Positions 20,971 through 50,721 of a stretch of 64,000 nt of DNA are shown here, in pieces. Every line of letters starts with the position of its first letter. The stretch's first letter is position 1. The notes below the pieces were generated by a model that was not told the origin of the DNA, did not search any database, and saw nothing but the letters and a program-made list of their open reading frames with translations. The position numbers and the translations under genes were made by a program. The stretch is from Hoeflea sp. BAL378 (GTDB lineage Bacteria; Pseudomonadota; Alphaproteobacteria; Rhizobiales; Rhizobiaceae). The stretch lies in NCBI RefSeq assembly GCF_000759435.1, contig NZ_JRJG01000010.1, forward strand, positions 1-64,000, given 5' to 3'.

Positions 20971-21046
20971 GCGAGGAAAATCCGATATTGAGAATAAATT
21001 GTTTTGGGCCAACATGACGGACTGGGTGCGGAAGCCATTGTAATCA

Positions 21047-21076
21047 TTGAGGTTATGTGTGATCTCCACATATAAA
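21047..21076 (+). promoter_or_regulatory. Candidate promoter of the flavoprotein-GMC operon with inverted repeat
   Basis: TTGAGG (21047-21052), an 18-base spacer and TATAAA (21071-21076). The spacer contains TATGTG-N7-CACATA (21054-21072), an inverted repeat that a repressor could use to block the promoter. It lies 280 bp before the first gene, in a divergent region with the racemase promoter, so a 5' leader of about 270 bases is implied. Confidence 0.45.
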
Positions 21077-21353
21077 ATTCCTATTTGCGTTATACATTCG
21101 TAATGAAAAAACTCTGGACGAAAGCCATCACTGTGATAATGACGGTCCCGGCCCAGTGTGTCTGGACCTGCGGCGGGCGCCGAGCGGCGATGAAGCGGCC
21201 GCCATCGTTCCGAATTCCCGGGACGCGGCGTGCGGGCGAAATCCCGCGCAGAAAAGTGCAGGCCCCCCACGGGGCGGCCCTCAAACGGGGGATCAATCGC
21301 GTTCGCACGGCGCCGTCGCGCCGGTTGTGCGGACAGAGTACCGGAGAAGTCCA

Positions 21354-34329: not shown

Positions 34330-35502
34330 GTGGTCTTCTTGCCTGTAATAAAAATACCCAAACCGGACTTCATGGACAATGAAGAGCTGAATATCTTCGA
34401 GACTTCGGTTCAGCGCAGTTTTGACTCCATAGTCTCTGACGGGGACGTGCGCAAATGGCGTGACCTGGGCACGGTGCCGCGCGACGTCTGGACACGGGTC
34501 GGCGAGGCGGGCCTGCTCGGGGTCTCCATACCCCAGCACTATGGCGGCGGCGGCGGCGATTTCCGCCATGAAGTCGTGATCATGCAGGAACTCGCGCGGC
34601 GAGACGCCACCGGATTTGCCATTCCGCTGCACAATGCGGTGGTCGCGCCTTATATTGTCGAGCATGCCACCGAGCAACTGAAGTCCCACTGGCTGGGACA
34701 GGCCGCGACCGGAGAGAAACTGCTGGCCGTGGCGATGACCGAACCGGCGGCCGGCTCGGACCTGCAGGGCATCCGCACCGTGGCCCGCCGGGACGGCGAC
34801 CACTATGTCATCAATGGGCAGAAGACCTTTATTTCCAACGGGCTGCACGCAGACATCATCGTCGTCGCGGTGAAGACTAATCCCGAAGCGGGCGCCAAAG
34901 GCATTTCGCTTCTCGTCGTGGAAACCGACAAGGCTGAAGGCTTCTCGCGCGGCAAGCTGCTGGACAAGCTCGGGCAGGAGAGCCGCGACACGAGCGAGCT
35001 GTTCTTCTCCGACGTGCGGGTCCCGGTGGAGAATCTGCTCGGCGGATCGGAGGGACAGGGTTTCCGGATGCTGATGGAGAACCTGCCGCAGGAGCGCATG
35101 GTCATCGCCTGGCTGGCGATGGGGATGATCGAAAGCGCGCTCGAGCACACAATGTCCTACGTGAAGGAGCGCAAGGCCTTCGGCAAGCCGCTTTTTGCGC
35201 AGCAAAACACCCAGTTCAAGCTGGCAGAATGCGTGGCCAAGGCGACGCAGACCAAGGTGTTCGTCCAGTACTGCACGCAGCTCCTGGTCGAGAAGCGGCT
35301 GGACGCCCCGACGGCGTCCATGGCGAAGCTGCTGGCGACCGAGACCCAGGCCGAGATCATCGACACCTGTCTGCAACTTTTCGGCGGCTACGGCTACATG
35401 CGGGAATACCCGATCGCCGAAATGTACCGGGACGCGCGCGGGTTCCGCATCTATGGCGGCACCAGTGAAATCATGAAGATCATCATCGCCCGATCGCTTT
35501 GA
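34330..35502 (+). CDS. Acyl-CoA dehydrogenase
   Basis: 390 residues, standard homotetrameric ACAD layout: AMTEPAAGSDLQGIRTVA, YVINGQKTFISNG, VKERKAFGKPL, LQLFGGYGYMREYPIAEMYRDARGFRIYGGTSEIMKIIIARSL. The YGGTSEI nucleotide motif is intact. It should desaturate a saturated acyl-CoA, passing electrons to ETF. Start is ambiguous among GTG 34330, TTG 34339 (better spaced from AAAGGTGG) and ATG 34372 (MDNEELNIFE). A crotonase with both catalytic Glu follows after 15 bp, making a desaturation/hydration pair. Confidence 0.92.
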   Translation: MVFLPVIKIPKPDFMDNEELNIFETSVQRSFDSIVSDGDVRKWRDLGTVPRDVWTRVGEAGLLGVSIPQHYGGGGGDFRHEVVIMQELARRDATGFAIPLHNAVVAPYIVEHATEQLKSHWLGQAATGEKLLAVAMTEPAAGSDLQGIRTVARRDGDHYVINGQKTFISNGLHADIIVVAVKTNPEAGAKGISLLVVETDKAEGFSRGKLLDKLGQESRDTSELFFSDVRVPVENLLGGSEGQGFRMLMENLPQERMVIAWLAMGMIESALEHTMSYVKERKAFGKPLFAQQNTQFKLAECVAKATQTKVFVQYCTQLLVEKRLDAPTASMAKLLATETQAEIIDTCLQLFGGYGYMREYPIAEMYRDARGFRIYGGTSEIMKIIIARSL

Positions 35503-35517: not shown

Positions 35518-36279
35518 ATGCAGGAAGTGTTGTTTGAGGTCGAAGACGGCGTCGCGATCATCACCATTAACCGTCCCGAGGCCAAGAATGCGGTGACCCG
35601 CGCCGTGTCGCAGGGGATTTCGGACGCGCTCGACGAGGTCGACAGCCGCAACGACATCCGCATCGCCATCATCACCGGCGCCGGCGGCACGTTCTGCGCC
35701 GGAATGGACCTGAAGGCCTTTCTGCGCGGGGAGATCGTCGGTCTCGAGGGCAGCGGCTTTGGCGGCATCGCGCGCCGCGTGATGACAAAGCCGGTGATCG
35801 CGGCGGTCGAGGGCTACGCGGTCGGCGGCGGCTTCGAGATCGCCCTGGCGTGTTCCATGATCGTGGCGGCGACGGACGCCAAATTCGCCCTGCCGGAAGT
35901 CAAGCGCGGGCTGGCCCCCACGGCGGGCGGCCTGGTTCGCTTGCCGCGCCTGCTGCCGCCCCGTATCGCCACGGAAATGGTGCTGACCGGCGATACGGTG
36001 ACGGCGGCCGATCTCGAACGCCACGGTCTCGTCAACAAGCTGGCCGAGCCCGGCGGAGCGCTCGCCGCGGCAAAGCAGTTGGCCGCCCGCGTCGCCGCAA
36101 ACGGACCCCTGGCGATCAAGGCCTGCGCGCAGGTCATGCGCGAGCAGCAGGACTGGACGACCGACGAAGTGTTTGCCCGCCAGGCCAAGATCACCGACGT
36201 GGTTTTTGCCTCGGCCGACGCGCGCGAGGGCGCAACGGCCTTCGCGGAAAAACGCAAGCCGAACTGGCAGGGAAAATAG
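35518..36279 (+). CDS. Enoyl-CoA hydratase (both catalytic Glu present)
   Basis: 253 residues. Canonical crotonase: TFCAGMDLKAF for the oxyanion hole, Glu in VGGGFEIALACSM and Glu in FALPEVKRGLAPTAGGLVRLPR, so true hydratase activity is well supported. C-terminal tail FAEKRKPNWQGK as in family. GAGGAG precedes ATG 35518. It lies in one transcript with the ACAD before it and probably the IclR gene 125 bp after it. Confidence 0.93.
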   Translation: MQEVLFEVEDGVAIITINRPEAKNAVTRAVSQGISDALDEVDSRNDIRIAIITGAGGTFCAGMDLKAFLRGEIVGLEGSGFGGIARRVMTKPVIAAVEGYAVGGGFEIALACSMIVAATDAKFALPEVKRGLAPTAGGLVRLPRLLPPRIATEMVLTGDTVTAADLERHGLVNKLAEPGGALAAAKQLAARVAANGPLAIKACAQVMREQQDWTTDEVFARQAKITDVVFASADAREGATAFAEKRKPNWQGK

Positions 36280-36404: not shown

Positions 36405-37247
36405 GTGGTTAGTGCCTTGGATCAAAACTCCCATTTGAATGTCAAGCAATCGGTCGACGGCGTGCTGATGCCGGTCGATACCATTGCCGACGGACGCAAG
36501 CAGGTCGGCGCGGTGGTTGCCGCCACGAGCGTGATCGAGAGCCTCTCCGCCAACCACCGGCGGCACCGCATGACGGCGATCGCCCGCGAACTCAAGATCC
36601 CGGTCAGTTCCTGCTTCAACATCCTCAAGACGCTCGTCAACGAACAGATCCTGGATTTCGACCCCGAGACGAAAACCTATGGCCTAAGCTACGGCCTGGT
36701 CGAAATCGCCCGGCATTATCTCGGACATGGCGGCGCGCTGCGTGTCGTCGCGCCCTTGCTGGAACAGCTCGCCCAGCATTACGAGGTGACGCTCGTGGTC
36801 TGGCGGCGTTCGGGCAAGAACATGGTGGTGGTCGACTATGTCGATCACGGCTCGGCCGTTCGGGTGCACATCGAGCCGGGGTCGCGGTTTCCGTTGCTGG
36901 CCGGCGCAATGGGGCGGGTCCTCGGCGCCTTTGGCGGCCTGACCACGCGGGAAACCCTGCACTTCTTCTCGCGCGTGAAATGGGACAGCCCCTTCACGTT
37001 CGAGCAGTTCATGGCCGAGGTGTCCGCGACCGCGGACCGGGGCTGGGCGATCGATGACGGGAGCTTCTCTTCGGGTATCTCGACGATCTCCGTTCCCATC
37101 TTCAACCGGCACCAGCATGCCGATGCGGTCCTCAGCGCCACGTCGTTCGTCAATCAATTGGGCGACAGGCAGCGTCGCGACATTGCCGAAGACCTGCAGT
37201 CTGTCGCGCATCTGATCGCGGAGATCCGTGTCGGCGATGACCTGTAG
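36405..37247 (+). CDS. IclR-family transcriptional regulator
   Basis: 280 residues. Winged-helix domain ATSVIESLSANHRRHRMTAIARELKIPVSSCFNILKTLVNEQILDFD and an effector domain (VWRRSGKNMVVVDYV, RFPLLAGAMGRVLGAFGG, DRGWAIDDGSFSSGISTISVPIF). Start GTG 36405 is the longest option; the first about 35 residues precede the homology, so a later start is possible. The gene is downstream of the ACAD and hydratase and is convergent with the nine-gene operon. It may control the divergent ligase/ACAD promoters and the operon. Confidence 0.87.
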   Translation: MVSALDQNSHLNVKQSVDGVLMPVDTIADGRKQVGAVVAATSVIESLSANHRRHRMTAIARELKIPVSSCFNILKTLVNEQILDFDPETKTYGLSYGLVEIARHYLGHGGALRVVAPLLEQLAQHYEVTLVVWRRSGKNMVVVDYVDHGSAVRVHIEPGSRFPLLAGAMGRVLGAFGGLTTRETLHFFSRVKWDSPFTFEQFMAEVSATADRGWAIDDGSFSSGISTISVPIFNRHQHADAVLSATSFVNQLGDRQRRDIAEDLQSVAHLIAEIRVGDDL

Positions 37248-37286: not shown

Positions 37287-38021
37287 TCAGAGGATCCGGC
37301 CGCCATCCACGACAAGCGTCTGCCCGGTGATGTAGGCAGCCAGCGGCGAGCTCAGGAACAGCGCAGGCCCGGCCATGTCTTCGACCGTGCCCAGCCGGCC
37401 AAGGGAAATCGTCCCCAGGGCGGCGTTCAGCCGGTCGGGATTGTTGACCGTCACGCCGGTCATCTTGGTCGCCACCATGCCCGGAGCCAGCACATTGACC
37501 CTGATGCCGTCACCGCCCCAGGCATCGCCGAGCGTGCGCGCCAGGGCGTGCACGGCGGCCTTGGACGCGGCATAGGCCGGGTTGCCCTTGACCGCCTTCA
37601 GCGCCCCGATCGAGCCGATGACGACGATGGAGCCCGAGGCCTGTTTCAGGCGCTGGTGGAAGGTCGTGGCGCACAGCATGACGCTCGAGAGGTTGACATC
37701 GATCACCCTGCGAAAGCTCTCCATCTCGAACTCGCGCCTTTTGTATTCGACGGCCCCTTGCGCCATGATCAGCACGTCAAGCTTGGGGATCCGGCCGGCC
37801 GCATCCTCGACCTCTGCGTCATTGCGCACATCGACCTTCGTGTAGGCAAGCCCCGAAAGGTTGGAGCCTTCGACACCGTCATAGTCGGCCGCGCTCGCGC
37901 GCGTGCCCCAGACGAGCACGTCCGCGCCATAGGCGCGGAACGCCTGGGCGATGCCGTTGCCGATGCCGCTCGAGCCGCCGACCACGAGCACTGTCTTTCC
38001 GGAAAAGTCGAACGGGTTCAC
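37287..38021 (-). CDS. Short-chain dehydrogenase/reductase
   Basis: 244 residues, classical SDR. NAD(P)-binding GGSSGIGNGIA, MAQGA in place of NNAG, active-site Ser in IGSIGALKAVKG and Tyr-Lys in AYAASKAAVH, and PGMVATKM. Oxidises or reduces a hydroxyl/keto group. Last gene of the nine-gene minus operon, joined to the crotonase by a GTGA overlap. In the Pseudomonas levulinate pathway an SDR makes the 4-hydroxyacyl-CoA for the kinase, so a 4-oxo/4-hydroxy role is an attractive inference for this one, or for the SDR at 44637. Confidence 0.9.
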   Translation of the reverse strand: MNPFDFSGKTVLVVGGSSGIGNGIAQAFRAYGADVLVWGTRASAADYDGVEGSNLSGLAYTKVDVRNDAEVEDAAGRIPKLDVLIMAQGAVEYKRREFEMESFRRVIDVNLSSVMLCATTFHQRLKQASGSIVVIGSIGALKAVKGNPAYAASKAAVHALARTLGDAWGGDGIRVNVLAPGMVATKMTGVTVNNPDRLNAALGTISLGRLGTVEDMAGPALFLSSPLAAYITGQTLVVDGGRIL

Positions 38022-38818
38022 TTGCCTGCCGCCTTTGCCTTCGCGGCCGCAGCCGCGGCCTTTGCCGCCTGCATGCCCCGCACGGTCTCCAGCAGTTCCG
38101 GCGCCTGGAAACTCTCGGCTTCCAGCATCAGGCCCAGTTCCAGCGTGCCATGGGCGATCTGTTGGGTGATCTTGTTGAAGGTGCGCTTGGTGCCCTGCAC
38201 GCCGAGCGGCGGATAGGAAACGATCCGTTGCGCGATCGAGAGCGCGTGCGGCAGCACCTCCTCCGGCGTGTCGACGAGATCGGTCACCACCCCCATGTCA
38301 TAGGCGCTTTCCGCGCTCAGCGGATCGCCCGTCAGCAAATAGCGCTTGGCGCGATTGATCCCCATCGCCTGTGTCCAGGCGATCACGCCGCCGTCGCCGG
38401 CGACGAGACCGAGAACCACATGGGGATCGATGAACCGGGCGTTCTTGTCGGCGACGATGATGTCGCTCGCGACCGCAATCGTGGCGCCGAGGCCCGCCGC
38501 GGTGCCCTGCACCGCGCTGATGACCGGGATGTCGAGCCGGGTGAGGATGCCGAACATTTCGGTGGCTTCATGCACCATGTGGCGCCGAAGCTCGAGCGAA
38601 TGATGGGCCTCGACAATCGAGTCCAGGTCGCCGCCGGCCGAGAAATGTCGTCCCGCGCCGGAAATGACCAGCGCGCGCAGGTCGGTCCTGCCCGCGATCT
38701 CCCGCAGGGCGCCGACAAGCTCGGTGTGCGCTTCCGGGTAGACCGCGTTGGCGATATCGGGCCGGTTCATCCGCAACTGCGCGATGCTGCTGCTGGTATC
38801 GAGTTCGAGAAAGCTCAT
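38018..38818 (-). CDS. Enoyl-CoA hydratase/isomerase family protein with Ala/Lys-rich tail
   Basis: 266 residues. HFSAGGDLDSIVEAH for CoA/oxyanion, AAGLGATIAVASDIIVADKNARFIDPHVVLGLVAGDGG for the core. The classical catalytic Glu positions are Thr and His; this DPHVVLGLVAGDGG subgroup is common in catabolic clusters, and its reaction is not established by sequence. The C-terminus ends in a low-complexity Ala/Lys run (MQAAKAAAAAAKAKAAGK). ATG 38818 is used; the frame continues to 38941 into the preceding gene without homology. 19 bp after the ACAD11-like gene. Confidence 0.87.
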   Translation of the reverse strand: MSFLELDTSSSIAQLRMNRPDIANAVYPEAHTELVGALREIAGRTDLRALVISGAGRHFSAGGDLDSIVEAHHSLELRRHMVHEATEMFGILTRLDIPVISAVQGTAAGLGATIAVASDIIVADKNARFIDPHVVLGLVAGDGGVIAWTQAMGINRAKRYLLTGDPLSAESAYDMGVVTDLVDTPEEVLPHALSIAQRIVSYPPLGVQGTKRTFNKITQQIAHGTLELGLMLEAESFQAPELLETVRGMQAAKAAAAAAKAKAAGK

Positions 38819-38837
38819 GGCGGATCCTAGCATGGGG

Positions 38838-40076
38838 TCAGGATGGGATGTCTTGCGGCGGGTAGCGCTTGTACTCGAGCCTTGCGACCGTGCGGGCGTG
38901 GACTTCGTCGGGTCCGTCGGCAATCCGCAGGGCACGCACACGCGCGAACAGCGCCGCGGTGCCGGCGTCCGAATCGAGGCCGCCCGCGCCGAAGGCCTGG
39001 ATGGCGTTGTCGATGATCCGAAGTGCGGTGAGCGGACCTGCGAGCTTGATCATGGCGATCTCGAGCCGCGCCTTCTGGTTGCCGACCTTGTCCATCATGT
39101 CCGCCGCCTTCAGGGTCAGCAGCCGGGTCATCTCGATGTCGACCCGTGCCTGCGCCACCCTTTGTTCCCAGATCGATTGATCGGCAAGCCTGCGGCCGAA
39201 TGTGTGCCGCGACTGCAGGCGCCGGACCATCTTTTCAAGCGCGACTTCCGCCATGCCGATGATGCGCATGCAGTGATGGATCCGTCCCGGGCCGAGCCGG
39301 CCCTGGGAAATCTCGAAGCCGCGCCCTTCGCCGAGCAGGAGGTTCTCCGCGGGCACGCGCACATTGTCGAAGGTCACCTCGAAATGGCCATGCGGGGCAT
39401 CGTCATAGCCGAAGCTGGTGAGCATCCGGCCGATGTGAATGCCCGGCGTGTCGCGCGGGACAAGGATCTGGCTCTGCTGCTGGTGCCGGGCGGCGGTGGG
39501 GTCGGTCTTGCCCATCACGATCATCAGCGTGCACCGCGGATCGCCCAGGCCGGAAATCCACCATTTCTTGCCGTTGATCACATAGTCGTCGCCGTCGCGG
39601 ACGATCGTCATGCTCACATTGGTCGCGTCCGAGGAGGCGACATCGGGTTCCGTCATGGCGAAGGCCGAGCGGATTTCGCCATCCAGCAGCGGGCGCAGCC
39701 AAGTCTGCTTCTGCGCCGCGGTGCCGTAGCGGTGCAGCACCTCCATGTTGCCGGTGTCCGGAGCCGAGCAATTGAAGACTTCCGAGGCCCAGGTGATGCG
39801 GCCCATTTCCTCGGCGAGCGGGGCGTAGTCGAGATTGGACAGGCCTGCGCCATGATAGTCGCTGGTGTCGTGCTCGGGCGAGGGCGGCATGAACAGGTTC
39901 CAGAGTCCTTTTGCCCGCGCCTTGGCCTTGAGCTCCTGAAGGATGGCGGGCTGCTGCCACCGGTTTTCGTCAAGCTGCGCATAATAGGTCGGCACGGCGG
40001 CCGCGACTTCGCTGCGCATGAAGCTGCGCACGGCGTCGAGATATTCGGCCTGCTTGTGTGAAAGATCAAAGTCCAC
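38838..40076 (-). CDS. ACAD10/ACAD11-like acyl-CoA dehydrogenase (4-phosphoacyl-CoA type)
   Basis: 412 residues. Its motifs match the dehydrogenase half of animal ACAD11: KGLWNLFMP (residues 57-64), [18 protein letters not shown] (101-118), [13 protein letters not shown] (141-153), [12 protein letters not shown], and [17 protein letters not shown] then IHHCMR (249-271), with [11 protein letters not shown] near the end. ACAD10/11 and the Pseudomonas LvaC enzyme act on 4-phosphoacyl-CoA, eliminating phosphate, rather than simply desaturating. GTG 40076 follows AGGGGT. It is 6 bp downstream of a kinase gene that corresponds to the N-terminal kinase domain of ACAD10/11, so the two make a split version. 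Confidence 0.88.
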
Positions 40077-40082
40077 GGCTGG

Positions 40083-41153
40083 TTACCCCTGTCTAGTGCG
40101 GCTGGTATCGTCGGCGATCCAGCCCAGTGCGCGCTGAAGCAGCGCTATTGCAGAACGGTGCAGGCGGTCCCCGGTCTGGCTGTCCACCAGCCCGGCGCAG
40201 GAACGCGCGTAAGTGCCCTCGAGGATGATGCCCAGCTTGAAGCAGGACAGGATCTCGAACCAGCGCAGGTGGGTGAGATCGCGCCCCGTCAGGCGGACAT
40301 ATTCGGCGATCAGTTCGCTGCGTCTGGGAAACCCGTCGGCAGGCTCCACGCGCAGGCTCAAGGGCGTGTCGCCGTTCTCGTCCGGCCAGGTGGAGAGCAG
40401 GCGCCCCAGGTCCAGCAGCGGGTCGCCCAGCGTGGCCATTTCCCAATCGGCGATCGCGGCCAGCCGGCCGTCCGCATCGAAGATCACATTGCCCAGGTGA
40501 TAGTCGCCATGAATAATGCCGGGCTGCATCCGGGGCGGGAGATTGCGGTCCAGCCACTGGCGGATGTCCGTGAGCCCCGGCAGCTCGTCGCGGCCCGTCC
40601 AATTGGCGAAGGCGTCATAGCTGTCCAATTGCTTGGTCCAGCGGCCGGTCTGGCGTTCGAGAAATCCCTCGAGCCGGCCGAAATCCGCCAGTCCCATCTC
40701 GAGCGGGTCGAGCGCGGCGAGCCTTGCCAGCCCTCCCACGAGTTCCAGGCCGAGGCGATGCCGGAAACCGGCGTCGGTGCGCAATCGCGGGGGCGGATCG
40801 AGCGTGGCGTTGAAGCCCGGCACAAAGGCCGTCAGGTAAAAGCTCGCGCCCAGCGCCTCCGGCCCGTCCGATCCGGCGATGAAGGCGGGATGGGGAACAT
40901 TGGTGCCCTCGAGCGCCGCCAGCAGCCGGGCCTCGCGGGTGATGATGCGATTGCTTTCGTCGCGCAGGTTCTCGGGCCCCCGGCGCACGACGAACGTCTC
41001 GGTGCCGCGGCGAAAGCACAGAAGGATGTTCTGGGTGCCGCCGGCGAGCCGCACCACATCGCTGATGGGTCCGGCGGCGATGCCCTGCGCATCCATCCAG
41101 CGCTCCAGGCGCGCCAGGTCAATGCCGAAGTGCTGCTCGGTGGCGGTGGTCAA
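40083..41153 (-). CDS. Aminoglycoside-phosphotransferase-fold kinase, ACAD10/11 kinase-domain-like
   Basis: 356 residues. Kinase landmarks: G-rich loop LAGGTQNILLCF, FVVRRGPENLRDESNRIITREARLLAALEGTNVPHP (matching the ACAD10/11 and LvaA type), catalytic loop HGDYHLGN (residues 215-222) and the metal-binding Asp236 in IADWEMATLGDPLLDLG. By family knowledge it would phosphorylate the 4-hydroxyl of an acyl-CoA. The start is TTG 41153, supported by GGAGG six bases upstream, and overlaps the preceding ACAD stop (TTGA). No antibiotic-resistance role is implied. The small LvaB partner of the Pseudomonas system was not found nearby. Confidence 0.88.
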   Translation of the reverse strand: MTTATEQHFGIDLARLERWMDAQGIAAGPISDVVRLAGGTQNILLCFRRGTETFVVRRGPENLRDESNRIITREARLLAALEGTNVPHPAFIAGSDGPEALGASFYLTAFVPGFNATLDPPPRLRTDAGFRHRLGLELVGGLARLAALDPLEMGLADFGRLEGFLERQTGRWTKQLDSYDAFANWTGRDELPGLTDIRQWLDRNLPPRMQPGIIHGDYHLGNVIFDADGRLAAIADWEMATLGDPLLDLGRLLSTWPDENGDTPLSLRVEPADGFPRRSELIAEYVRLTGRDLTHLRWFEILSCFKLGIILEGTYARSCAGLVDSQTGDRLHRSAIALLQRALGWIADDTSRTRQG

Positions 41154-42259
41154 AGCAATCCTCCAAACCGCTGTGCAACCATCTCCGCGAACGGGGCATA
41201 GAGCTTCTCAGCAGTGTCGGAGGGGCCGCCGGCAAGATGCTCGTCGAGCAGCGCGCGTTGCAAAAACAGATGGCAATCCTGCTCCGCGGTGAAGCCGATG
41301 CCGCCATGGATCTGGATGGCGTCCATCGCAATGCGCCGGTAGACCTCGGTCGCCCAGAGCCGCGCCCCGCCGGCCAACGGGGTGTCGCAGCCTTGTTCGC
41401 TCATCACCTGCGCCGCATGGGAGACCAGCGCTGACGCGGATTCGAGCCAGGTGCGCATGTCGGCGCAGCGATGCTTGATCGCCTGGAAGGAGCCGATGGC
41501 GCGCCCGAATTGCTGGCGGGTGATGCTGTAGTCGATCGTGTCCTGGAGGGCCTGCGCCGCGCCGCCGATCGCATCGCCGGCAATGGCTAGGTCAAAATGC
41601 GCCTGGGCACGCAGGATGGCCGCGCGCGCGGGGTCGCCGACGTGGATCAGCGCGGTTTCCGGAACGGTGAAGCCGGAGAAGGTCACCCGGGCGAGCGCGC
41701 GCGACGGATCCCAGAACGCGACCGGGGCGATCTCCAGTCCCGCGCCACCTGTTTCGACGATCGCGATGGCTGGCTCGCCCGCCTGCTCGATCACAATGAC
41801 AAGATGGGTGGCTTGGGAAGGGGCAAGGCAGTGGGCAATTTCGCCGTCCAGGCGCAGCCCGTCGCCCGCGGGGCTTGCGGCCAACGGCGCGTCATGCGGC
41901 CGGTGCAGCGCGACGACAATCTCGCCGGATGCGATGCCTGCGTAGAACTGCCCGGCAAGCGCCGAGCCTTTTAGCATCTCGACCAGGAGCATGGAGTTCA
42001 AGAGCGGCGCGGGCGACAGGACGCGCCCCAGCTCGCTGTAGAGGGGGACGAGCGTCGTGTAGGGCTGCTCGAGGCCGTCGAAGGCGCCGGGGATGGCGAG
42101 CGTCAGCCATCCGAGGTCGACCAACTGCCGCCAGTGATCCTGCGCGGCCCGGGGTTCGGCCAGCGCCCGTCTTTGCGGATGATTGGCCAGGACGCGATGC
42201 GCGGTATCCGCCATCTCCGCCGCATCAATCACGTCGATACTCTCTTCCGTCGCGCTCAC
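41150..42259 (-). CDS. Acyl-CoA dehydrogenase, small-type subunit of second ACAD pair
   Basis: 369 residues. Diverged ACAD: WRQLVDLGWLTLAIPGAFDGLEQPYTTLVPLYSELGRVLSPAPLL in the N-terminal domain, then SITRQQFGRAIGSFQAIKHRCADM and DAIQIHGGIGFTAEQDCHLFLQRA in the C-terminal domain. It lacks the SEPxxGSD and GGTxEI motifs found in its partner, as expected for one chain of an alpha2beta2 ACAD. Start GTG 42259 overlaps the partner's stop (GTGA); upstream codons to 42343 belong to the partner in another frame. Confidence 0.87.
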   Translation of the reverse strand: MSATEESIDVIDAAEMADTAHRVLANHPQRRALAEPRAAQDHWRQLVDLGWLTLAIPGAFDGLEQPYTTLVPLYSELGRVLSPAPLLNSMLLVEMLKGSALAGQFYAGIASGEIVVALHRPHDAPLAASPAGDGLRLDGEIAHCLAPSQATHLVIVIEQAGEPAIAIVETGGAGLEIAPVAFWDPSRALARVTFSGFTVPETALIHVGDPARAAILRAQAHFDLAIAGDAIGGAAQALQDTIDYSITRQQFGRAIGSFQAIKHRCADMRTWLESASALVSHAAQVMSEQGCDTPLAGGARLWATEVYRRIAMDAIQIHGGIGFTAEQDCHLFLQRALLDEHLAGGPSDTAEKLYAPFAEMVAQRFGGLL

Positions 42260-43425
42260 GATGTCTTCTCCCGCGGCATTCCCAGAACGCGTTCGGAAAT
42301 GATGTTGCGTTGAATTTCGTTGGTGCCGCCGGCGATGGTCCACATGTAGGAATTGAGGAAGTCGAACATCCAGTTCCCGGTTTCATGTCCCGCGCCCAGC
42401 ACCAGGGGCGATTTGGCCAGGCCATGCATGCCTTCGACGCCGAGGCCGAGCTGGGTGAATTCGCGCAGCACCTCGGCATAGAAATGCTTGACGAAGGAGG
42501 AATCGCCGGGCGCGTCTTCGCCTTTGCCGGCGCGCCGCATCATCTGTCCCGTCAGCGCCCGCAACGCCTCGATCTTGATCTGGACCATGGTCCCCTTGCG
42601 CCGGAATTCGGCGTCGCCCGACCGTCCGGACCGGTTCATGGCCTCGAGGAGCCGCCAGACGGCCCGATGCATGCGCTCGGCCAGTTCCAGGATGGTCAGG
42701 CCGCGTTCGGAGGCAAGCGTCGTCTGCGCCACCTTCCAGCCTTCGCCCTCGGCGCCCAGTCGGTTCTCGACCGGGATGACGACGTCCTGGAGGAAAAGCT
42801 CGCTGAATTCCTCGTCGCCGGTGATCTGCCGGATGGGTCGCGTGACGATGCCCTCGGATTTCATGTCCATGAGAAGAAAGGTGATTCCGGCCTGCTTCGG
42901 CCCCTCTTTCGACGTCCTCACCAGCAGCAGGCACCAGTCGGCATGCTGGCCCATGGTCGACCAGATTTTCTGCCCGTTGACGATGTAGTTGTCGCCGACG
43001 CGTTCCGCCCGTGTCCGCAGCGACGCCAGATCCGAGCCGGCATTGGGCTCGGAAAAGCCCTGGCACCAGATCGCCCCCTTGAGGATCGCATCGAGGTGCT
43101 GCGCCTTCTGCGCCTCTGTCCCCCAATGGCTGATGGTCATGGCGGCGTGATAGAGAGAGATGAAATACAGCAGCAGCCGCGGCGCGTCGGCGCGCGCCAT
43201 TTCCTCAAAAATGATGACCTGTCTTTCGAGCGGCAATCCGCCGCCGACCCAGGCGGAATCCCAGTGGGGCGTGGCATAGCCCGACGGGATGATGGTCTCG
43301 AACCATTCGCGTTGCAGCTCCACGAAGGCTGCCGTATCCGCGCCTTCCATGCGGGCGCGCCAGTCCGAAGGCAGGTTTGCCGAAATCCAGGCCCTGACCT
43401 GCTTCCGAAATGCATCATCTGTCAT
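42256..43425 (-). CDS. Acyl-CoA dehydrogenase, large-type subunit of second ACAD pair
   Basis: 389 residues. CQGFSEPNAGSDLASLRTRA, YIVNGQKIWSTMGQHADWCLLLVRT and the C-terminal WTIAGGTNEIQRNIISERVLGMPR show complete FAD and nucleotide motifs. The GYATPHWDSAWVGGGLPLERQVIIFEEMARADAPR opening is typical of the FadE group used on steroid-like and other bulky CoA esters. Coupled by GTGA overlap to the smaller ACAD downstream, with which it probably forms a heterotetramer. It starts 33 bp after the OYE gene. Confidence 0.9.
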   Translation of the reverse strand: MTDDAFRKQVRAWISANLPSDWRARMEGADTAAFVELQREWFETIIPSGYATPHWDSAWVGGGLPLERQVIIFEEMARADAPRLLLYFISLYHAAMTISHWGTEAQKAQHLDAILKGAIWCQGFSEPNAGSDLASLRTRAERVGDNYIVNGQKIWSTMGQHADWCLLLVRTSKEGPKQAGITFLLMDMKSEGIVTRPIRQITGDEEFSELFLQDVVIPVENRLGAEGEGWKVAQTTLASERGLTILELAERMHRAVWRLLEAMNRSGRSGDAEFRRKGTMVQIKIEALRALTGQMMRRAGKGEDAPGDSSFVKHFYAEVLREFTQLGLGVEGMHGLAKSPLVLGAGHETGNWMFDFLNSYMWTIAGGTNEIQRNIISERVLGMPREKTS

Positions 43426-43458: not shown

Positions 43459-44634
43459 TCACTCGAGCGTTTCGAGCTGCCTGGGATGGAACGGGTGCGG
43501 GAGCGTATGATCGAGCATTTTCCTGGTCCAGTCCGGATCGCCGATCAGCGCGCGCCCGACGGCGACCATATCGAATTCGCCGCGGGCGAAGCGGGCCATG
43601 ATCTTGTCGATATTGTCGACGGCTGCCAGGCCTCCGGCATCGTCGAAGGTCCCCTTGTTGAGGCCGACCCCGCCGACGGTCATCGACAGCTTGCCGGTCA
43701 GCTTCTTGGCCCACCCGGCGAGGTTCATGTCCGAACCCTCGAACGCCGGGCGATCGAAAAAGCGCACGCTGGCGTCGAACATGTCGACACCCGCCTCGGC
43801 CATGGGGCCCAGGATTTCCTCCAGTTCCGAAGGCGTGCGCGCGAGTTCGGCGCGGTAGTCCTGCAGCTTCCACTGCGAAAACCGAAAGATGATGGGGCGA
43901 CGGTCGCCGATGACGCGACGGATCCCCGAGAGGATCTCGACGATCACCGCGTTGCGCCGCTTGCGGTCCCCGCCCCAGCGATCGGTGCGCAGATTGGTGC
44001 CTTCCCAGAGGAAATTGTCCAGCAGATAGCCATGCGCCCCGTGGATGGCGATTCCATCGAAGCCGACCCCGACCGCATTGGCGGCCGCGCCGACGAAGGC
44101 GTCGATCACGTCCTGGATCTGTTCGTCGGTCAGGGGATCTCCGAGAACGGGATTGGAGGGGATCTTGTCGCTCTCCAGCGAGGTCGTGCCGAGCGGCCCC
44201 CACACGCCGGACGGGCCGATCGTCGGCGCGTCCGGGAACGGGCCTGTCCCCGGTGCGCGGATGACGCCCTGGTGCCAGAGTTGCGGGACGATCTTGGCGC
44301 CTTCCGCATGCACCTGCTCCACCACGCGGCGCCAGCCTTCAAGCGGTTTGGTCCCGTACAGGACCGGCGCTTCGTCGATCCCTTGCCCGGCCTCGCCGAG
44401 GGCTGAGGGATGCTCGACGCCCACGGCCTCGGTGATGATCAGTCCCGTGCCGCCCCTTGCCCGGCGCGCGTAATAGTCCGCGCTGGCCGCTGTCGGGATG
44501 CCGCCGGCGCTGAAGCCGCGCGTCATCGGCGCCATCGCGATGCGGTTCGGGATGGTGACGGCGCGGATGGTGAGCGGCTCCCCGAGAGCCGCCCGGTCGA
44601 GATGACGGGGTGTCTGTGCTGCAGAATCGGTCAT
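43459..44634 (-). CDS. NADH:flavin oxidoreductase / Old Yellow Enzyme family reductase
   Basis: 391 residues, FMN-dependent TIM barrel. IPNRIAMAPMTRGFS at the start, VPQLWHQG, the substrate-binding pair His198/His201 with Tyr203 (IHGAHGYLLDNFLW), TDRWGGDRKRRNAVIVEIL, and MVAVGRALIGDPDW for phosphate binding. No C-terminal Fe-S/FAD domains, so it is the short OYE type, not a full 2,4-dienoyl-CoA reductase. Reduces an activated C=C bond. It is third in the nine-gene operon, 2 bp after the HSD10-like SDR, and could reduce an alpha,beta-unsaturated ketone or dienoyl intermediate. Confidence 0.92.
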   Translation of the reverse strand: MTDSAAQTPRHLDRAALGEPLTIRAVTIPNRIAMAPMTRGFSAGGIPTAASADYYARRARGGTGLIITEAVGVEHPSALGEAGQGIDEAPVLYGTKPLEGWRRVVEQVHAEGAKIVPQLWHQGVIRAPGTGPFPDAPTIGPSGVWGPLGTTSLESDKIPSNPVLGDPLTDEQIQDVIDAFVGAAANAVGVGFDGIAIHGAHGYLLDNFLWEGTNLRTDRWGGDRKRRNAVIVEILSGIRRVIGDRRPIIFRFSQWKLQDYRAELARTPSELEEILGPMAEAGVDMFDASVRFFDRPAFEGSDMNLAGWAKKLTGKLSMTVGGVGLNKGTFDDAGGLAAVDNIDKIMARFARGEFDMVAVGRALIGDPDWTRKMLDHTLPHPFHPRQLETLE

Positions 44635-44636
44635 GC

Positions 44637-45401
44637 TTACCTCGGGGCCATCCGTATTGCGCCATCGATGCGAATTGTCTCGCCATTGAGCATCGCGTTG
44701 TCGATGATGTGGGCTGCGAGCTTGGCGTATTCCTCGGGCCGGCCCAGCCGGGCAGGATGGGGCGTCGCCTTCTCGAGCGCAGCCTTCACTTCGGGTTTGA
44801 CGCGATCGAGAATGGGCGTCTCGAATGTGCCCGGGGCGATGGTGCAGACCCGGATCTTGCGGCTGGCCAGATCGCGGGCCGCGACAATGGTCATGCCGTG
44901 GATGCCGGCTTTCGCCGAGGCATAGGGGATCTGGCCGATCTGCCCCTCGAACGCGGCCACGGACGCGGTCAGGACGACCACGCCGCGTTCACCGTCGACC
45001 TCGTCGTTCTTGGCCATCGCGGCGGCGGCGAGTCGCAGCGTGTTGAAGCTGCCGATCAGATTGATTTCGACGACTTCCCGGTAAAGATCCAGCGAACCGG
45101 GATTGCCGTCCCTGTCGACCACACGCACCGGGCCGCCGCGGCCGGCGCAGTGCACGCAGGCGCGCAGCGTCCCCAGTTCCGCCGCCATGTCGAACGCGGC
45201 CTGCATCTGGTCGGCGTCGCGCACATCGGCCGGCGAGAAGCGCGCCGCGTCGCCGAATTCGGCGGCGACGGCCGCGCCGTTCGAGCTTGGTAGATCGACG
45301 ATGACAACCTTGGCGCCTTCGGCGATCAGCTTCTTGACCGTCGCATAGCCCAGGCCTGACGCTCCGCCGGTGACAACGGCAACATTACCCTTGATATCCA
45401 T
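44637..45401 (-). CDS. SDR, HSD10-like 3-hydroxyacyl-CoA dehydrogenase
   Basis: 254 residues. Close in pattern to type-2 3-hydroxyacyl-CoA dehydrogenase (HSD17B10): [49 protein letters not shown], catalytic [24 protein letters not shown] and the characteristic ending [18 protein letters not shown]. Converts (3S)-hydroxyacyl-CoA to 3-oxoacyl-CoA with NAD, which suits the thiolase encoded 12 bp upstream. Together they form the last two steps of a beta-oxidation round within the operon. Confidence 0.92.
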
Positions 45402-45413: not shown

Positions 45414-46595
45414 TCAAAGTCTCTCGATGATTGTCGCATTGGCAAGCCCGCCTGCCTCGCACATGACCTGAAGGCCATAGCGCCCGCCGGTTTGTTCGAG
45501 GCCGTTGAGCATGGTCGCCATCAGGCGGCCGCCCGAAGCGCCCAGCGGGTGGCCCAGTGCAATGGCGCCGCCGCGCGGATTGAGCTTTGCCGGATCCACC
45601 GCATATTCCTTCTGCCAAGCCAGCGGCACGCTGGCAAAGGCCTCGTTGACCTCGAAATGGTCGATGTCGCCGATCTTGAGACCGGCTTTCTCGAGGACGC
45701 GCTTCGTGGCCGGGATCGGGGCCGTCAGCATCATGATGGGGTCGTCGCCGATGACGTCGAAGGCAACGAACCGCGCCCGCGGCTTCAGGCCGAGGCGGTT
45801 CGCCGTGGCTTCGCTCATGACCAGAACCGCCGAAGCCCCGTCGGCCAACTGGGACGAATTGCCCGCCGTAATGCTCCAGTTGATCTGCGGGTAGCGCTCC
45901 TTGAACGCCGGGTTGTCGAAGGACGTCTTCAGTTCGGCCAGGGCCTGCGGGGTCGAGGAGTCGCGGATAGTCTGGTCCCGCGCGACCAGCCCGCCCGGCG
46001 CTTTCGCCGCGACGACTTCATTGTCGAATCCGCCTGAATCGCGGGTCGCGGCGGCGCGCTGGTGGGATGCGGCCGCGAAGGCATCCATCTCGGCGCGGGT
46101 GATGTTCCATTTGGCGGCGATGCGCTCGGCGGCGATGCCCTGAGGAATCAGGCCGCCTTCATACCGGGCGTGAAGCATGGCGCCGGTCGGGTCCTGGCCG
46201 ATGCGCGCGGTGAACATCGGCACGCGGCTCATCGATTCCACGCCGCAGGCGATGACGATGTCATAGGCCCCGGCCATGATGCCCTGGGCGGCGAAATGGA
46301 CGGCCTGCTGGCTCGATCCGCAGCGCCGGTCGACGGTGGTGGAGGGGACGTGTTCGGGGAACCCGGCGCCGAGCCAGGCAATGCGCCCCGGCGACCCGGC
46401 CTGTTCGCCGACCTGGCTGACGCAGCCGGTAATCACATCGTCCACCGTGCCGGGATCGAGCCGGTTGCGGGCAACCAGCTCCTGAAGAAGGACCGCCAGC
46501 AGGTCCGTGGGGTGGATTGCCGAGAGTGCGCCACCTTCCTTGCCGCGTCCCATGGGCGTGCGCACCGCATCTACAATTACCGGTATGCCTGTCAT
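45414..46595 (-). CDS. Thiolase (acetyl-CoA acyltransferase family)
   Basis: 393 residues, degradative-thiolase layout. Nucleophile Cys92 in VDRRCGSSQQAVH, His349 in ALGHPLGASGGR and Cys379 in VMCEAGGLANATI are all present; VNEAFASVPLAWQ is also typical. It should cleave a 3-oxoacyl-CoA to acetyl-CoA or propionyl-CoA plus a shortened acyl-CoA. ATG 46595 is chosen because GGAGG lies eight bases upstream; TTG 46610 has no ribosome site. First gene of the nine-gene minus operon (46595 to 37287); its leader holds a hairpin and an inverted repeat. Confidence 0.94.
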   Translation of the reverse strand: MTGIPVIVDAVRTPMGRGKEGGALSAIHPTDLLAVLLQELVARNRLDPGTVDDVITGCVSQVGEQAGSPGRIAWLGAGFPEHVPSTTVDRRCGSSQQAVHFAAQGIMAGAYDIVIACGVESMSRVPMFTARIGQDPTGAMLHARYEGGLIPQGIAAERIAAKWNITRAEMDAFAAASHQRAAATRDSGGFDNEVVAAKAPGGLVARDQTIRDSSTPQALAELKTSFDNPAFKERYPQINWSITAGNSSQLADGASAVLVMSEATANRLGLKPRARFVAFDVIGDDPIMMLTAPIPATKRVLEKAGLKIGDIDHFEVNEAFASVPLAWQKEYAVDPAKLNPRGGAIALGHPLGASGGRLMATMLNGLEQTGGRYGLQVMCEAGGLANATIIERL

Positions 46596-46621
46596 GATGG
46601 TGTCCTCCAAGAGCGTATGTC

Positions 46622-46725: not shown

Positions 46726-48372
46726 TCAGCCCTGTCCGCCCGCCTGCCGGGCAAAGTCCTCGACGATCCTCGCCCGCAGAATGTGCTTCTGGACCTTGCC
46801 GGAGGGCGTGCGCGGCAGATCGTCCACATATTCGATCCGTTCCGGCCATTTCTGCGCGGCAAGGCCCATGGAGCGCAGATGCTCCGCCAAGGCCCCCTGG
46901 TCCGGGCGCCGTTCGCTTGCCGGGATGATGAAGGCATAGACCCCTTCTCCCAGCCGGGCATGGGGCATGGAGGTGATGGCCACCTCGCGAATGTCGGGAT
47001 GGGTGTGAAGCGCGTCTTCGATCTCCTTGGGGGAGAGATTCTCGCCGCCGCGGATGATCAGGTCCTTTTTCCGCCCGGTCACGGTCAGCACGCCGTCAGC
47101 GGTGACCCGGCCGATATCGCCGGTGCGGAAGAAGCCCTCGTCGTCGAAAGCCTCCGCCGTGGCGACGGGATCGGTATAGCCCATGAACATGGCCGGTCCC
47201 CGCGCCAGGATTTCCCCGTCGAGACCCGGCGCGACAATGCGGCCGGCATCATCGACGACCTTGACCTCATAGTCGTAGATGCGTCCGTCCGTCGTGGCCG
47301 AAAGCTCCGGGTCTTCCGGGCAGCCCTGGGTGATCATCGGGCACTCCGTGGAGCCGAACACCCGGAATGTCCGGCAGTTCCGGAAAACCCTGTTGGCGCG
47401 CCTGATCAGGTCGGGCGGGACGGCCGCGCCGCCGCAAAAGAACACCTCCAGGCTGGGCAGCGTCGACCCGGCGCGCTCGGCAGCCTCGAGCAGGCCGGCG
47501 AGAAAGGGCGTTGCCCCGACCATCACCTGCGCGCCGAGCGAATCGATCAGCTTGACCGCGTCGTCGGCATCCCAACGCTCCATAAGGATGGTCTGGGTGC
47601 CGAGGTAGAAGCAGTTGTCGATGCCGTAGCTCAGGCCGCTCACATGGCCGACCGGCGTGCCGATGAGAAAGGTCGCGCCGGGTTTGAGGCCGAACGCGGC
47701 TTCGCTGTTGGCCAGGGTCCGGCGCGCCTGGTTATGGGTCCAGATCACCCCCTTGGCATGGCCGGTGGTGCCCGATGTGTAGACGATCTGCTTGACATCG
47801 TCCGGGTGGGCGGCCTGAAGCGTGGCGTTGCTCGCCCGGCCCAGGGTAATAATGTCCTCATACCCCGGTCCGGCGCTGCCCGGGCTGCGGACCGGAACGA
47901 CATGGTCGAGTCCCGGGACTGCCTCCCTGATCTCGCGCAAGACCTCGAGATGGTCGGTGGTGCGGTAGATCCCGGGAGAGAAGATGAGGCGCGACCGGCA
48001 ATCGTTGAGGATCGAGCGCAGCTCGAACCCGCGATAGATCGAGACGATGGGGTTCATGACGAAGCCGCCCATCACCGCGGCCAGATCGATTTCCGCCGCC
48101 TCGATCCAGTTGGGCAATTGGAGGCTGATCGTGTCTCCCGGCTTCAGCCCGAGTTCCATCAGGCCGCGGGCCAGAGCCGTTGCCCGGTCTATGAGGTCCG
48201 AGATCGTGTGGGTCCGTCCGTCGGCGACGATCACCGGACGGTCGGGATTTTCCGATCGGGCCTCAGCCGCGTAATCGGCGATCGTCTTGCCCGTCCATAT
48301 CTTCCGGCCTGTCAGGTCGCGTGATTTTTCCGCCAGCGATGGCGATGTCCAAGGCGTGTTCTTCGTCTGCAT
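46726..48372 (-). CDS. AMP-forming acyl-CoA synthetase
   Basis: 548 residues. Motifs VYTSGTTGHAKGVIWTH, VFGSTECPMITQG, FRTGDIGRVTADGVLTVTGRKKDLIIRGGENLSPKEIE and the C-terminal lysine in TPSGKVQKHILRARI. The RKKDLIIRGGENLSPKEIE block and longer N-terminus resemble cyclohexanecarboxylate/terpenoid-acid CoA ligases, but specificity is not certain. ATG 48372 is nine bases from GGGAGG; ATG 48378 is too close to it. The open frame runs back to 48621 without homology. It diverges from TRAP system 2, so it may activate the acid that system imports, and it precedes the nine-gene operon by 130 bp. Confidence 0.92.
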   Translation of the reverse strand: MQTKNTPWTSPSLAEKSRDLTGRKIWTGKTIADYAAEARSENPDRPVIVADGRTHTISDLIDRATALARGLMELGLKPGDTISLQLPNWIEAAEIDLAAVMGGFVMNPIVSIYRGFELRSILNDCRSRLIFSPGIYRTTDHLEVLREIREAVPGLDHVVPVRSPGSAGPGYEDIITLGRASNATLQAAHPDDVKQIVYTSGTTGHAKGVIWTHNQARRTLANSEAAFGLKPGATFLIGTPVGHVSGLSYGIDNCFYLGTQTILMERWDADDAVKLIDSLGAQVMVGATPFLAGLLEAAERAGSTLPSLEVFFCGGAAVPPDLIRRANRVFRNCRTFRVFGSTECPMITQGCPEDPELSATTDGRIYDYEVKVVDDAGRIVAPGLDGEILARGPAMFMGYTDPVATAEAFDDEGFFRTGDIGRVTADGVLTVTGRKKDLIIRGGENLSPKEIEDALHTHPDIREVAITSMPHARLGEGVYAFIIPASERRPDQGALAEHLRSMGLAAQKWPERIEYVDDLPRTPSGKVQKHILRARIVEDFARQAGGQG

Positions 48373-48907
48373 GATCATGCTCCTCCCAAGCGGCACCAGA
48401 AGTATCGTATTCTCCATTACGAAGCAATTTCGCATAATAGAATTTTTTGGTTCGGTGTACAGACCCGCCGCCTTGGCCGGATTGAGAAAATTCCGCTTGG
48501 CGCACAGGCGGATCAGAGAGGAATGCGAGCCGGCCTCAAAGGGGGATTGGCCCAATCCGGCCGGCGCCGGACGGGCAGGCGTCAGGTCCGGGAGTCGAGG
48601 GGCCGTTCCGGCGGACGACATCTGTGCGGGAAAGCGCGCGGCGGCGGCCCGGACAGGCGCGACCCGGCCCGCGCCGGCTGGGTGGAGCGGCCGGTGCGCA
48701 GACCTAATTTTTTTCTATCTACGAATTTATATCGATATTAGGATTGAAAATTGTCCGACATGTGCATAGGGTCATGTCCTAGCATGCGAGGAATTGCCTT
48801 TGATGGGTGCGGGTTGCCGCCACAAGAGGCACAGGCGATTGCTCCGTGTGATGAACAGTAGCTGGCGATAACGCATGCCGAGGATATTCGGTATCGGGAG
48901 GATTCAC
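48373..48907. other. Divergent control region between the ligase and TRAP system 2
   Basis: About 535 bp, no gene supported. On the plus strand TTGAAA (48744-48749), 17-base spacer, TAGGGT (48767-48772) is a candidate promoter for the TRAP genes, with an AT-rich block just upstream (48708-48750) suited to an UP element. On the minus strand a good -10 TATTAT (48434-48439) precedes the ligase gene, without a good -35, suggesting an activated promoter. The middle, 48480-48700, is GC-rich and featureless. Confidence 0.4.
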
Positions 48908-50044
48908 ATGAAAAGCAAAATGACCAGGATGACGGCGCTGGCTCTGGCCGGTGCGATGTCGGTGGCGGGCACGGCCGTTGCCGGGGAGCTCGTTTATTCC
49001 AGCTTCTTGCCGGACACGCATTACGACAACGCTTATGTCATGAAGCGTTTCTCGGACAGCATTTCCGAGGCGTCCGGCGGAAAGCTCAGCCTGAGCATTT
49101 CGGGCGGCGGCGTGCTTGCGTCGGCCACGACGCAGTTCGAAGCCATCAGCAAGGGCATTGTTGATGCCGGAAACGTCACCTATGCCTACACCCCGTCGCT
49201 TGCACCCGCGGTGACGCTTGTCGCGGACATGCCCGGCACGATCCAGCAGGTCTCGGCAGCGGCTGTCACCGAAACCCTGATGCTCGACTGCCCCCAGTGC
49301 AAGGAGGAGCTGGACGCTCTCGGCGTCACCTTCGTGGCCAACGCTTCCACCGAGCCGTTCAGCCTCATCTGCACGAAGAAGGATGTTGCCTCGCTTGCGG
49401 ACCTGAAGGGCGCGAAAGTGCGCGCCACCGGCGCGCTTGCCCGGCTGATGGCCGCGGTTGGCGCGACGCCGGTGAACATCACCTTCGCCGAGATCTACGA
49501 AGGCTTTCAGCGCGGCCAGATCGATTGCACCGCGATCGGCGCGGCGACGCTTGCCACCCTGCAGCTTTGGGATGTGGCGGACTCGGTCACGGTCGAGCTT
49601 CCGCTCGGGACCGTCACCCATTACGGCCTGCTCCTGGTCAACAGCGGCGTCTGGAACGGCTTGAGCGCCGAGGACAAGCGCGTCATGCTGGACGCAGCAC
49701 CGGGCATCGTGGCCGACAATGGCTATGTGACGCTCAAGAGCTCCGGCGAGGCGATGGTGACCGCCACGACCGAGAAGAGCATGAAAGCGGTTGAAGCCGA
49801 CCCGGAACTGCAGGCGGCCGTCAAGGAGGCCCTTGCCAAACAGGCCGACGACGCCGTCGCCTCCGCGCGGGATCGCGGCGTCAAGGACCCCGAAGCCATT
49901 GTCGCCGCCTTCACAAGCAATGTGGACAAGTGGACCCAGATCTACAACGAGATCGGCAGCGACGGCAATTGGAATGACGATCAGTGGGCAACCTTCCGCG
50001 CCCGCCTGAAGTCGGAGATTTACGACAACGTCTCTGTCCAGTAA
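48908..50044 (+). CDS. TRAP transporter solute-binding protein (DctP family)
   Basis: 378 residues. Sec-type signal peptide (MKSKMTRMTALALAGAMSVAGTAVA, then GELVYSSFLP). Core DctP features: NAYVMKRFSDSISEASGGKLSLSISGGGVLA, the conserved Arg in LKGAKVRATGALARLM expected to bind the substrate carboxylate, and FAEIYEGFQRGQIDCTAI. Unlike the binding protein at 2349 it is in the more common DctP branch. ATG 48908 follows GGGAGGATT. It leads a SBP-DctQ-DctM-FAD oxidase run, so the cargo may be a 2-hydroxy acid or a related carboxylate. Confidence 0.92.
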   Translation: MKSKMTRMTALALAGAMSVAGTAVAGELVYSSFLPDTHYDNAYVMKRFSDSISEASGGKLSLSISGGGVLASATTQFEAISKGIVDAGNVTYAYTPSLAPAVTLVADMPGTIQQVSAAAVTETLMLDCPQCKEELDALGVTFVANASTEPFSLICTKKDVASLADLKGAKVRATGALARLMAAVGATPVNITFAEIYEGFQRGQIDCTAIGAATLATLQLWDVADSVTVELPLGTVTHYGLLLVNSGVWNGLSAEDKRVMLDAAPGIVADNGYVTLKSSGEAMVTATTEKSMKAVEADPELQAAVKEALAKQADDAVASARDRGVKDPEAIVAAFTSNVDKWTQIYNEIGSDGNWNDDQWATFRARLKSEIYDNVSVQ

Positions 50045-50052
50045 GCGCTTCT

Positions 50053-50079
50053 GCAACCCGCCGAAAGGCGGGTTGCTTT
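50053..50079 (+). terminator. Intra-operon hairpin after the TRAP binding-protein gene
   Basis: Perfect 10-bp stem GCAACCCGCC / GGCGGGTTGC with a GAAA tetraloop (50063-50066), followed by only TTT. It lies 8 bp after the stop of the binding-protein gene and 43 bp before the DctQ ribosome site. Such a weak terminator lets part of the transcripts continue and protects the 3' end of the binding-protein mRNA, giving more binding protein than permease. Confidence 0.75.
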
Positions 50080-50121
50080 CGCCGCTTGCCGCAGCGTTTT
50101 GCACCGACTTTGGGGAAGAGA

Positions 50122-50670: not shown

Positions 50671-50721
50671 CGCCTGGCGCCAGCGGTCTGCCCTCAGTCA
50701 GCGTCAATCAAAGGTTCATTC

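Follow-up and report, generated by a model that had tools for sequence, protein, structure and literature searches.

The two adjacent genes at 38838-41153 of the window (i.e., the whole 64,000-nucleotide stretch of DNA that was analysed) belong to a ten-gene acyl-CoA operon and probably specify a split unit for dehydroxylation in two steps, similar to ACAD10/11. Split kinase and acyl-CoA dehydrogenase (ACAD) genes are themselves common in bacteria and their chemistry is published; what is new here is the kinase, which appears, from its phylogeny, to belong to a distinct lineage (hereafter clade A) that is separate from the ACAD10/11 kinases and apparently uncharacterised. A route through a phosphorylated intermediate would be the best reading of the pair, since the active site of the ACAD is complete and the catalytic and CoA-contacting residues of the kinase are present. 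Phosphorylation-dependent removal of hydroxyls from acyl-CoAs has been worked out recently (for levulinate and for mammalian 4-hydroxy acids). If our reading is true, there would be one more kinase lineage, equipped with a reductase of its own and with interchangeable lyases, which would make this chemistry a reusable module in bacterial degradation, and the clade A system would supply testable enzymes for ketone and hydroxyl removal.

Organization of the operon

The kinase and the ACAD are separate ORFs that are not fused into one chain, and both lie where the sequence-only reading had placed them (Table 1). A 6-nt gap separates them, and the start of the kinase shares 4 nt with the preceding gene; both lie within a minus-strand run that encodes, in order, a CoA ligase, a thiolase, an SDR, an OYE, two ACADs, the kinase, the ACAD, an enoyl-CoA hydratase and a second SDR; the nine intergenic gaps of this run, based on the longest ORFs, range from -104 to 115 nt. 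The larger operon described earlier, with its ACAD pair, OYE, SDR and thiolase, is thus confirmed and also includes the CoA ligase. The operon SDR that had been labelled HSD10-like has as its best match a generic 3-ketoacyl reductase, below cut-off. The ACADs at 41150 and 42256 are probable heteromeric partners. Homologues of the hydratase/isomerase that are 48-50% identical occur at two related loci (L040 and L041), and relatives of the conventional ACAD at 34330 (42-52% identical) at 4 of the 21 other clade A loci described below. The repeats listed for 30000-54000 are short, imperfect ones only.

Elsewhere in the window, 15813-24762 forms a second acyl-CoA catabolic block with a split-looking ACAD pair, one member having N-terminal and middle domains only and the other the C-terminal domain only, together with hydratases, a CoA-transferase III, a nitronate-monooxygenase-like protein and a GMC oxidoreductase.

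Table 1. Genes of the operon and of its surroundings, with positions in the window.
Feature	Coordinates	Strand	Basis
ACAD10/11-type acyl-CoA dehydrogenase family protein, 412 aa, GTG start; predicted phospho-acyl-CoA lyase	38838..40076	-	similarity, residues, tree
APH-fold kinase, 356 aa, TTG start after GGAGG; clade A	40083..41153	-	Pfam, residues, tree
SDR, 244 aa, YAASK, glycine motif GGSSGIG; proposed keto-acyl-CoA reductase, LvaD-like role	37287..38021	-	
Enoyl-CoA hydratase/isomerase; probable start ATG at 38833, not 38941	38018..38941	-	
ACAD without Pfam middle-domain match; best NCBIfam match IpdE2, below cut-off	41150..42343	-	
ACAD, PimC-like large subunit, below cut-off	42256..43425	-	
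OYE-family flavin reductase; 61% identical homologue beside Cupriavidus triad	43459..44634	-	
SDR, probable 3-hydroxyacyl-CoA dehydrogenase; homologues 70% (Cupriavidus locus) and 52% (Sphingomonas JE1)	44637..45401	-	
Thiolase, TIGR01930 above cut-off; 73% homologue at Cupriavidus locus	45414..46610	-	
Acyl-CoA ligase (AMP-binding), heads the run, 115 nt before thiolase	46726..48621	-	
Conventional ACAD, divergent unit	34330..35502	+	
Enoyl-CoA hydratase, divergent unit	35518..36279	+	
IclR-family regulator, possible regulator of the cluster	36405..37247	+	
TRAP transporter DctP, DctQ, DctM, divergent from operon; possible uptake system	48875..52035	+	

The dehydrogenase belongs to the ACAD10/11 branch

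On sequence and phylogeny, the assignment of the ACAD at 38838-40076 as a true ACAD10/11-branch enzyme is solid. A phmmer search returned 4hr3 (443 bits) and the three ACAD11 chains 8v3u (436), 8v3v (433) and 2wbi (431), with the next ACAD at 138 bits, so that the resemblance greatly exceeds what chance would give; we take 8v3u and 8v3v to be the mouse ACAD11 entries of PMC12440821. Identity to mouse ACAD11 is 54%. The "many exact signatures" of ACAD11 claimed from the letters alone correspond to three motifs that are indeed present (at residues 105, 141 and 249 of 412), although the wording was slightly generous, with one motif being identical to that of ACAD11 and the others differing by one and two residues.

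The available part of PMC12440821 names R626, H634, R637 and R631 together with the catalytic D753 in mouse ACAD11, with R631 being called general, and that of PMC11342911 describes a special active-site proline in ACAD11 (human P463); the assignment of residues to CoA and phosphate contacts relies on simulations published for mouse ACAD11 rather than on a complex with substrate. All six residues are kept in the window ACAD. That is, P106 corresponds to human P463, and R260, R265, H268, R271 and D387 correspond to mouse R626, R631, H634, R637 and D753, equivalences assigned by motif; the HCMR motif (H268, R271) and the Arg upstream of it (R260) are included. None of three control ACADs of the window has the six-residue set: two retain only the R631 equivalent, and in one the proline column is occupied by a Pro.

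In a 57-row tree (53 hand-picked rows out of 167 extracted ACADs, plus 4 references, after removal of eight further long or control rows that an earlier tree had contained), the window ACAD, mouse ACAD11 and 4hr3 share a clade of 42 rows that has 100/100 support. The sequence-only claim of an ACAD10/11-branch dehydrogenase is therefore upheld by both the clade and the complete published active site; a placement outside the ACAD10/11 branch, which the sequence-only reading had set as its refutation, did not occur in this tree, which speaks to ACAD10/11 and not to true LvaC.

The kinase forms part of a separate clade

The neighbouring protein matches the Pfam family APH (5.9e-34), and the HGDYHLGN loop reported from the sequence is intact (residues 215-222). 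Catalytic D217 and N222 and metal-binding D236 are present, as are R73 and R167, the equivalents of the CoA-contacting mouse R86 and R176; the match of R73 to R86 rests on the wording of the available published text (beside the alphaC Glu), the counted numbering being off by two there. Membership of the APH family, together with weak NCBIfam hits on macrolide and aminoglycoside kinases, would also fit an antibiotic phosphotransferase located beside an ordinary acyl-CoA dehydrogenase. We find this scarcely credible, however, given matches of 21-24 bits against cut-offs of 205-650, the catabolic operon context and an ACAD without an ordinary active site.

By sequence, the kinase is nearest to 9o56 (125 bits), 3dxp (109) and ACAD11 (91). 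Its predicted structure is of moderate confidence (pLDDT 77, with residues 211-221 around the catalytic loop below 50), and the fold matches of the model are headed by 3dxp (Z 25.2), followed by structures of the Sterolibacterium 25-hydroxysteroid kinase (25-HSK; Z 20.7-21.4); ACAD11 is absent from the fold matches listed, which is no evidence either way, and the prediction seems to add little beyond the sequence. The high rank of 25-HSK, as well as four clade A loci without an ACAD11-like neighbour (below), could indicate that the kinase acts on a free, non-CoA alcohol as 25-HSK does and that the ACAD is independent of it, with another substrate. This is quite improbable in our judgement, because sequence favours 3dxp (148 bits) and ACAD11 (124) over 25-HSK (52), the CoA-contacting arginines are invariant, and an ACAD is found at 12 of the 16 loci that were recovered by means of the kinase.

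Where the sequence-only reading went astray was in taking the kinase to be the matching ACAD10/11 one. In a 65-row tree (61 kinases hand-picked from 168 extracted, plus 4 references; the APH rows L041_4228, L042_6646, L043_6596, L044_7318, L044_18254 and L133_349 were removed), the window kinase is part of clade A (22 rows, 100/99). Clade B (29 rows, 98/92) is of the ACAD10/11 type and includes mouse ACAD11, 3dxp and a resident kinase of the same genome, and clade C (100/100) consists of 12 kinases from loci with DUF6285. The tests reject a grouping of clade A with the kinase of mouse ACAD11 (p 0.0017), whereas a joint clade of A and C is not rejected (p 0.148) and one of A and B is only weakly rejected (p 0.021), so that more than one branching order of the three clades would fit. 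The catalytic D and N, the metal-binding D and both CoA-contacting arginines are invariant in clade A (22/22) and in the ACAD10/11-type kinases (29/29); in clade C, the first of these arginines is found in 1/12 and the second in 0/12. Twelve positions distinguish clade A from the ACAD10/11-type kinases.

No paper on clade A was found in the literature searched, which included little subscription literature and, for kinase plus ACAD chemistry, comprised the ACAD10/11, levulinate and 25-HSK papers; among the papers listed for its organisms and plasmids none was relevant, and searching by gene name also found none. As a separate observation, L041 has a further APH-family gene of a different kind (4228-5157) within a few kb of its kinase and ACAD, and similar genes are found at L042, L043 and L044; they lie near lipid-transfer-type thiolase-like genes.

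Distribution of clade A and its association with an SDR

At E 1e-60, a class sample yielded clade A in 4 of 384 genomes and a phylum sample in 5 of 397, own genome not counted (one genome being in both); ACAD11-like proteins at E 1e-100 were found in 129 of the 398 phylum-sample genomes, own genome included. Among the plasmid matches listed, clade A kinases are carried by Cupriavidus, Sulfitobacter, Rhodococcus, Sphingomonas, Massilia, Variovorax and Caulobacter (search at 1e-5, best 40 of 259 records; 7 of the top 13 were examined, with near-duplicates left out).

The loci examined amount to 21 plus the window. L040-L044 were found via ACAD similarity, and the presence of an ACAD there is by construction. 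The 16 loci found by the kinase (7 on plasmids and 9 from 8 genomes) include 12 with an ACAD11-family gene and 10 with an orthologue of the SDR at 37287 (at least 50% identity); when all 22 clade A loci are counted, the numbers are 18 and 13, respectively. An ACAD11-like gene is missing from the 20 kb examined at four loci (L146, L148, L149 and L150), three of which have ordinary ACADs only nearby. Among 75 control ACAD11-like loci (L045-L119, several of them short-flanked), whose kinase is of another kind or absent, 0 have an SDR orthologue at the same identity, and the best SDR match there is at most 37%. The 13 SDRs adjacent to clade A kinases form one clade (100/100) with the lva-like SDR outside, in a tree in which many other branches are weak.

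The Cupriavidus plasmid (L120) carries the trio with identities of 65% (SDR37287), 55% (kinase) and 78% (ACAD), and divergently adjoining it are the OYE (61%), SDR44637 (70%) and thiolase (73%). Across loci, with the window counted, relatives of the thiolase occur five times, of ACAD34330 five times and of SDR44637 four times. A zinc alcohol dehydrogenase gene lies beside the clade A kinase or its ACAD at L144 (11907-12944), L148 (8408-9445) and L151 (6410-7450); its product may be another enzyme that makes or consumes the hydroxyl.

Apparent exchange of the ACAD partner

The trees place the 18 ACADs that accompany clade A kinases in three branches. One is the seven-row clade of the window, whose other six members are 76-80% identical to the window ACAD; the others are a second core branch of six rows (52-58%) and an outlying branch of five rows (34-39%). 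A single clade for all 18 is rejected (p 2e-10) and three changes are needed, and all six published residues are present in 18/18, the window's included, down to 34% identity. The closest ACADs beyond the seven-row clade (67-70% identical; Bradyrhizobium and others) have kinases, where found, that are about 30% identical to the window kinase, and among the eight such loci the kinases that were placed in a tree belong to clade B. Judging from the trees, the clade A kinase thus seems to have joined the window's ACAD branch at the base of the seven-row clade. Such exchange is not special to clade A, as kinases nearest to the ACAD11 type also stand beside ACADs of a further outlying branch (relatives of the genome).

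The best reading of these patterns is a modular cassette, in which the SDR would reduce, the clade A kinase would phosphorylate and an exchangeable ACAD would eliminate the phosphate. It is tempting to go further, although here our confidence stops a little short of even, and to hypothesize that hydroxyacyl-CoA kinases have in clade A a third lineage, independent of the ACAD10/11 and LvaA types, that evolved jointly with a keto-acyl-CoA reductase of its own and has repeatedly recruited different ACAD lyases, i.e., a mobile "ketone removal" cassette for cyclic or branched compounds.

The pair in its host genome

The genome has a second, resident pair on another contig (C130, 3684-7636; L152), with an ACAD that is 52-55% identical and a clade B kinase; the two genes are on opposite strands there, and they offer a natural control for the window pair. 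No close homologue of either window gene was found in 17 same-genus genomes, where ACAD matches are 52-59% only and kinase matches 30-35% only (best E 1.6e-37), and these low identities suggest that the window pair is probably an accessory acquisition. As far as the kinase and the ACAD are concerned, the same values disfavour a genus-wide function. The search for a near-identical plasmid copy found none, the best place covering 4% of the 24-kb query.

Proposed pathway

Since LvaD reduces levulinyl-CoA to 4-hydroxyvaleryl-CoA (available part of PMC6692424), the SDR-kinase-ACAD trio suggests a keto, hydroxy, phospho and enoyl sequence. Specifically, the SDR at 37287 probably reduces a gamma-keto acyl-CoA to the gamma-hydroxy acyl-CoA, and the kinase, with its intact catalytic and CoA-contacting residues, would move a phosphate from ATP to the hydroxyl. 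In the ACAD, by analogy with mouse ACAD11, Asp387 and FAD would take the alpha proton, and the phosphate held by His268, Arg271 and Arg260 would be expelled to give the 2-enoyl-CoA with no net oxidation; the hydratase, SDR and thiolase of the operon would then complete beta-oxidation. That is, 4-ketoacyl-CoA would be converted to 4-hydroxyacyl-CoA, 4-phosphoacyl-CoA and 2-enoyl-CoA, followed by hydratase, SDR and thiolase. While gene order, protein families, residue conservation, phylogeny and recurrence are direct observations, the substrate, the position of its hydroxyl and the order of the steps are what we infer, and the "4-hydroxy acid" and "more complex substrate" of the sequence-only reading should be taken in the same sense.

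Because clade A is distant from the assayed kinases that were compared, its kinase may act at another position or on a non-CoA alcohol. The first of these would mean that the kinase phosphorylates an other-position or a cyclic or hindered hydroxyl, still as a CoA ester, and that the ACAD removes that phosphate, the "4-hydroxy" label being carried over from the mammalian enzymes. A kinase in its own clade, with the mouse ACAD11 grouping rejected and twelve separating positions, is in line with this, as is the gene content of related loci, which hints at ring compounds: lipid-transfer-type thiolase-like proteins at L040 and L041, a BaiCD/FadH-like OYE at L040, a KstD-like dehydrogenase (below cut-off) at L120 and P450s at L124. 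Lipid-transfer-type thiolase-like proteins are retro-aldolase partners in steroid side-chain degradation. We nevertheless consider such a shift in position unlikely, as full conservation of the gamma-phosphate-holding residues in the ACAD speaks for an unchanged position of the phosphate, and we favor the gamma-hydroxy route. Steroid ring degradation, which the IpdE2-like and PimC-like ACADs had suggested, was set aside, as a search of the genome for delta-1-dehydrogenase, the one steroid enzyme looked for, gave nothing above cut-off (106 of 789 bits at best).

Comparison with known systems

Sterolibacterium 25-HSK resembles the window kinase in its APH fold and in ATP-driven removal of a hydroxyl via a phosphoester. 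It differs in acting on a steroid alcohol without CoA, according to the available part of PMC8449060 (where its lyase partner was unknown in 2021), and its sequence match to the window kinase is only 52 bits.

The Pseudomonas putida LvaA/LvaC/LvaD system is similar in having, by family, a kinase, an ACAD, an SDR and a CoA ligase in one operon and in the proposed keto, hydroxy, phospho and enoyl sequence. The differences are that no LvaB-like gene was found in the window operon, that the window kinase stands apart from the sampled lva-like kinases (although the data do not reject a joint clade, and L202 serves as the reference on the strength of its gene order), and that the SDR at 37287 is outside the clade of the lva-like SDR. 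L202 (8365-13547, contig 18 of G790) is an lva-like operon in the order kinase, DUF6285, ACAD, SDR and CoA ligase. DUF6285, which we take to be the family of LvaB, has no match in the host genome; it occurs in 38 of 398 phylum-sample genomes, with an APH-type kinase match at 30/30 of the DUF6285 loci examined, and at L179, L182 and others its matches are in open frames of about 455-500 aa, long enough for kinase-DUF6285 fusions. The L202 ACAD keeps THCMR and DGP but is 35% identical to mouse ACAD11, as opposed to the 62% and 56% given for LvaC to ACAD10 and ACAD11 in the available part of PMC11342911, and hence L202 may not be a true levulinate operon. The absence of LvaB noted from the sequence holds insofar as no gene lies between the kinase and the ACAD, but it is not distinctive, since a levulinate cluster of Pseudomonas citronellolis without lvaB is described in the available part of PMC6692424.

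Separate bacterial pairs, for example in Bradyrhizobium (solved relatives: 3dxp for the kinase and 4hr3 for the ACAD), share the split genes, and their ACADs are up to about 71% identical while being outside the window's seven-row clade; unlike in the window pair, the kinases of those that entered the tree are of the ACAD10/11 type, at about 30% identity to the window kinase. Mammalian ACAD10/ACAD11 differ in that the window genes are separate and the window kinase is outside the ACAD10/11 kinase clade. They are alike in the ACAD domain (54% to mouse ACAD11), with the same catalytic Asp, HCMR, phosphate-holding Arg and Pro, and in the catalytic and CoA-contacting residues of the kinase. According to the available part of PMC11342911, separate bacterial kinase and ACAD orthologues functioned in place of the ACAD10 domains.
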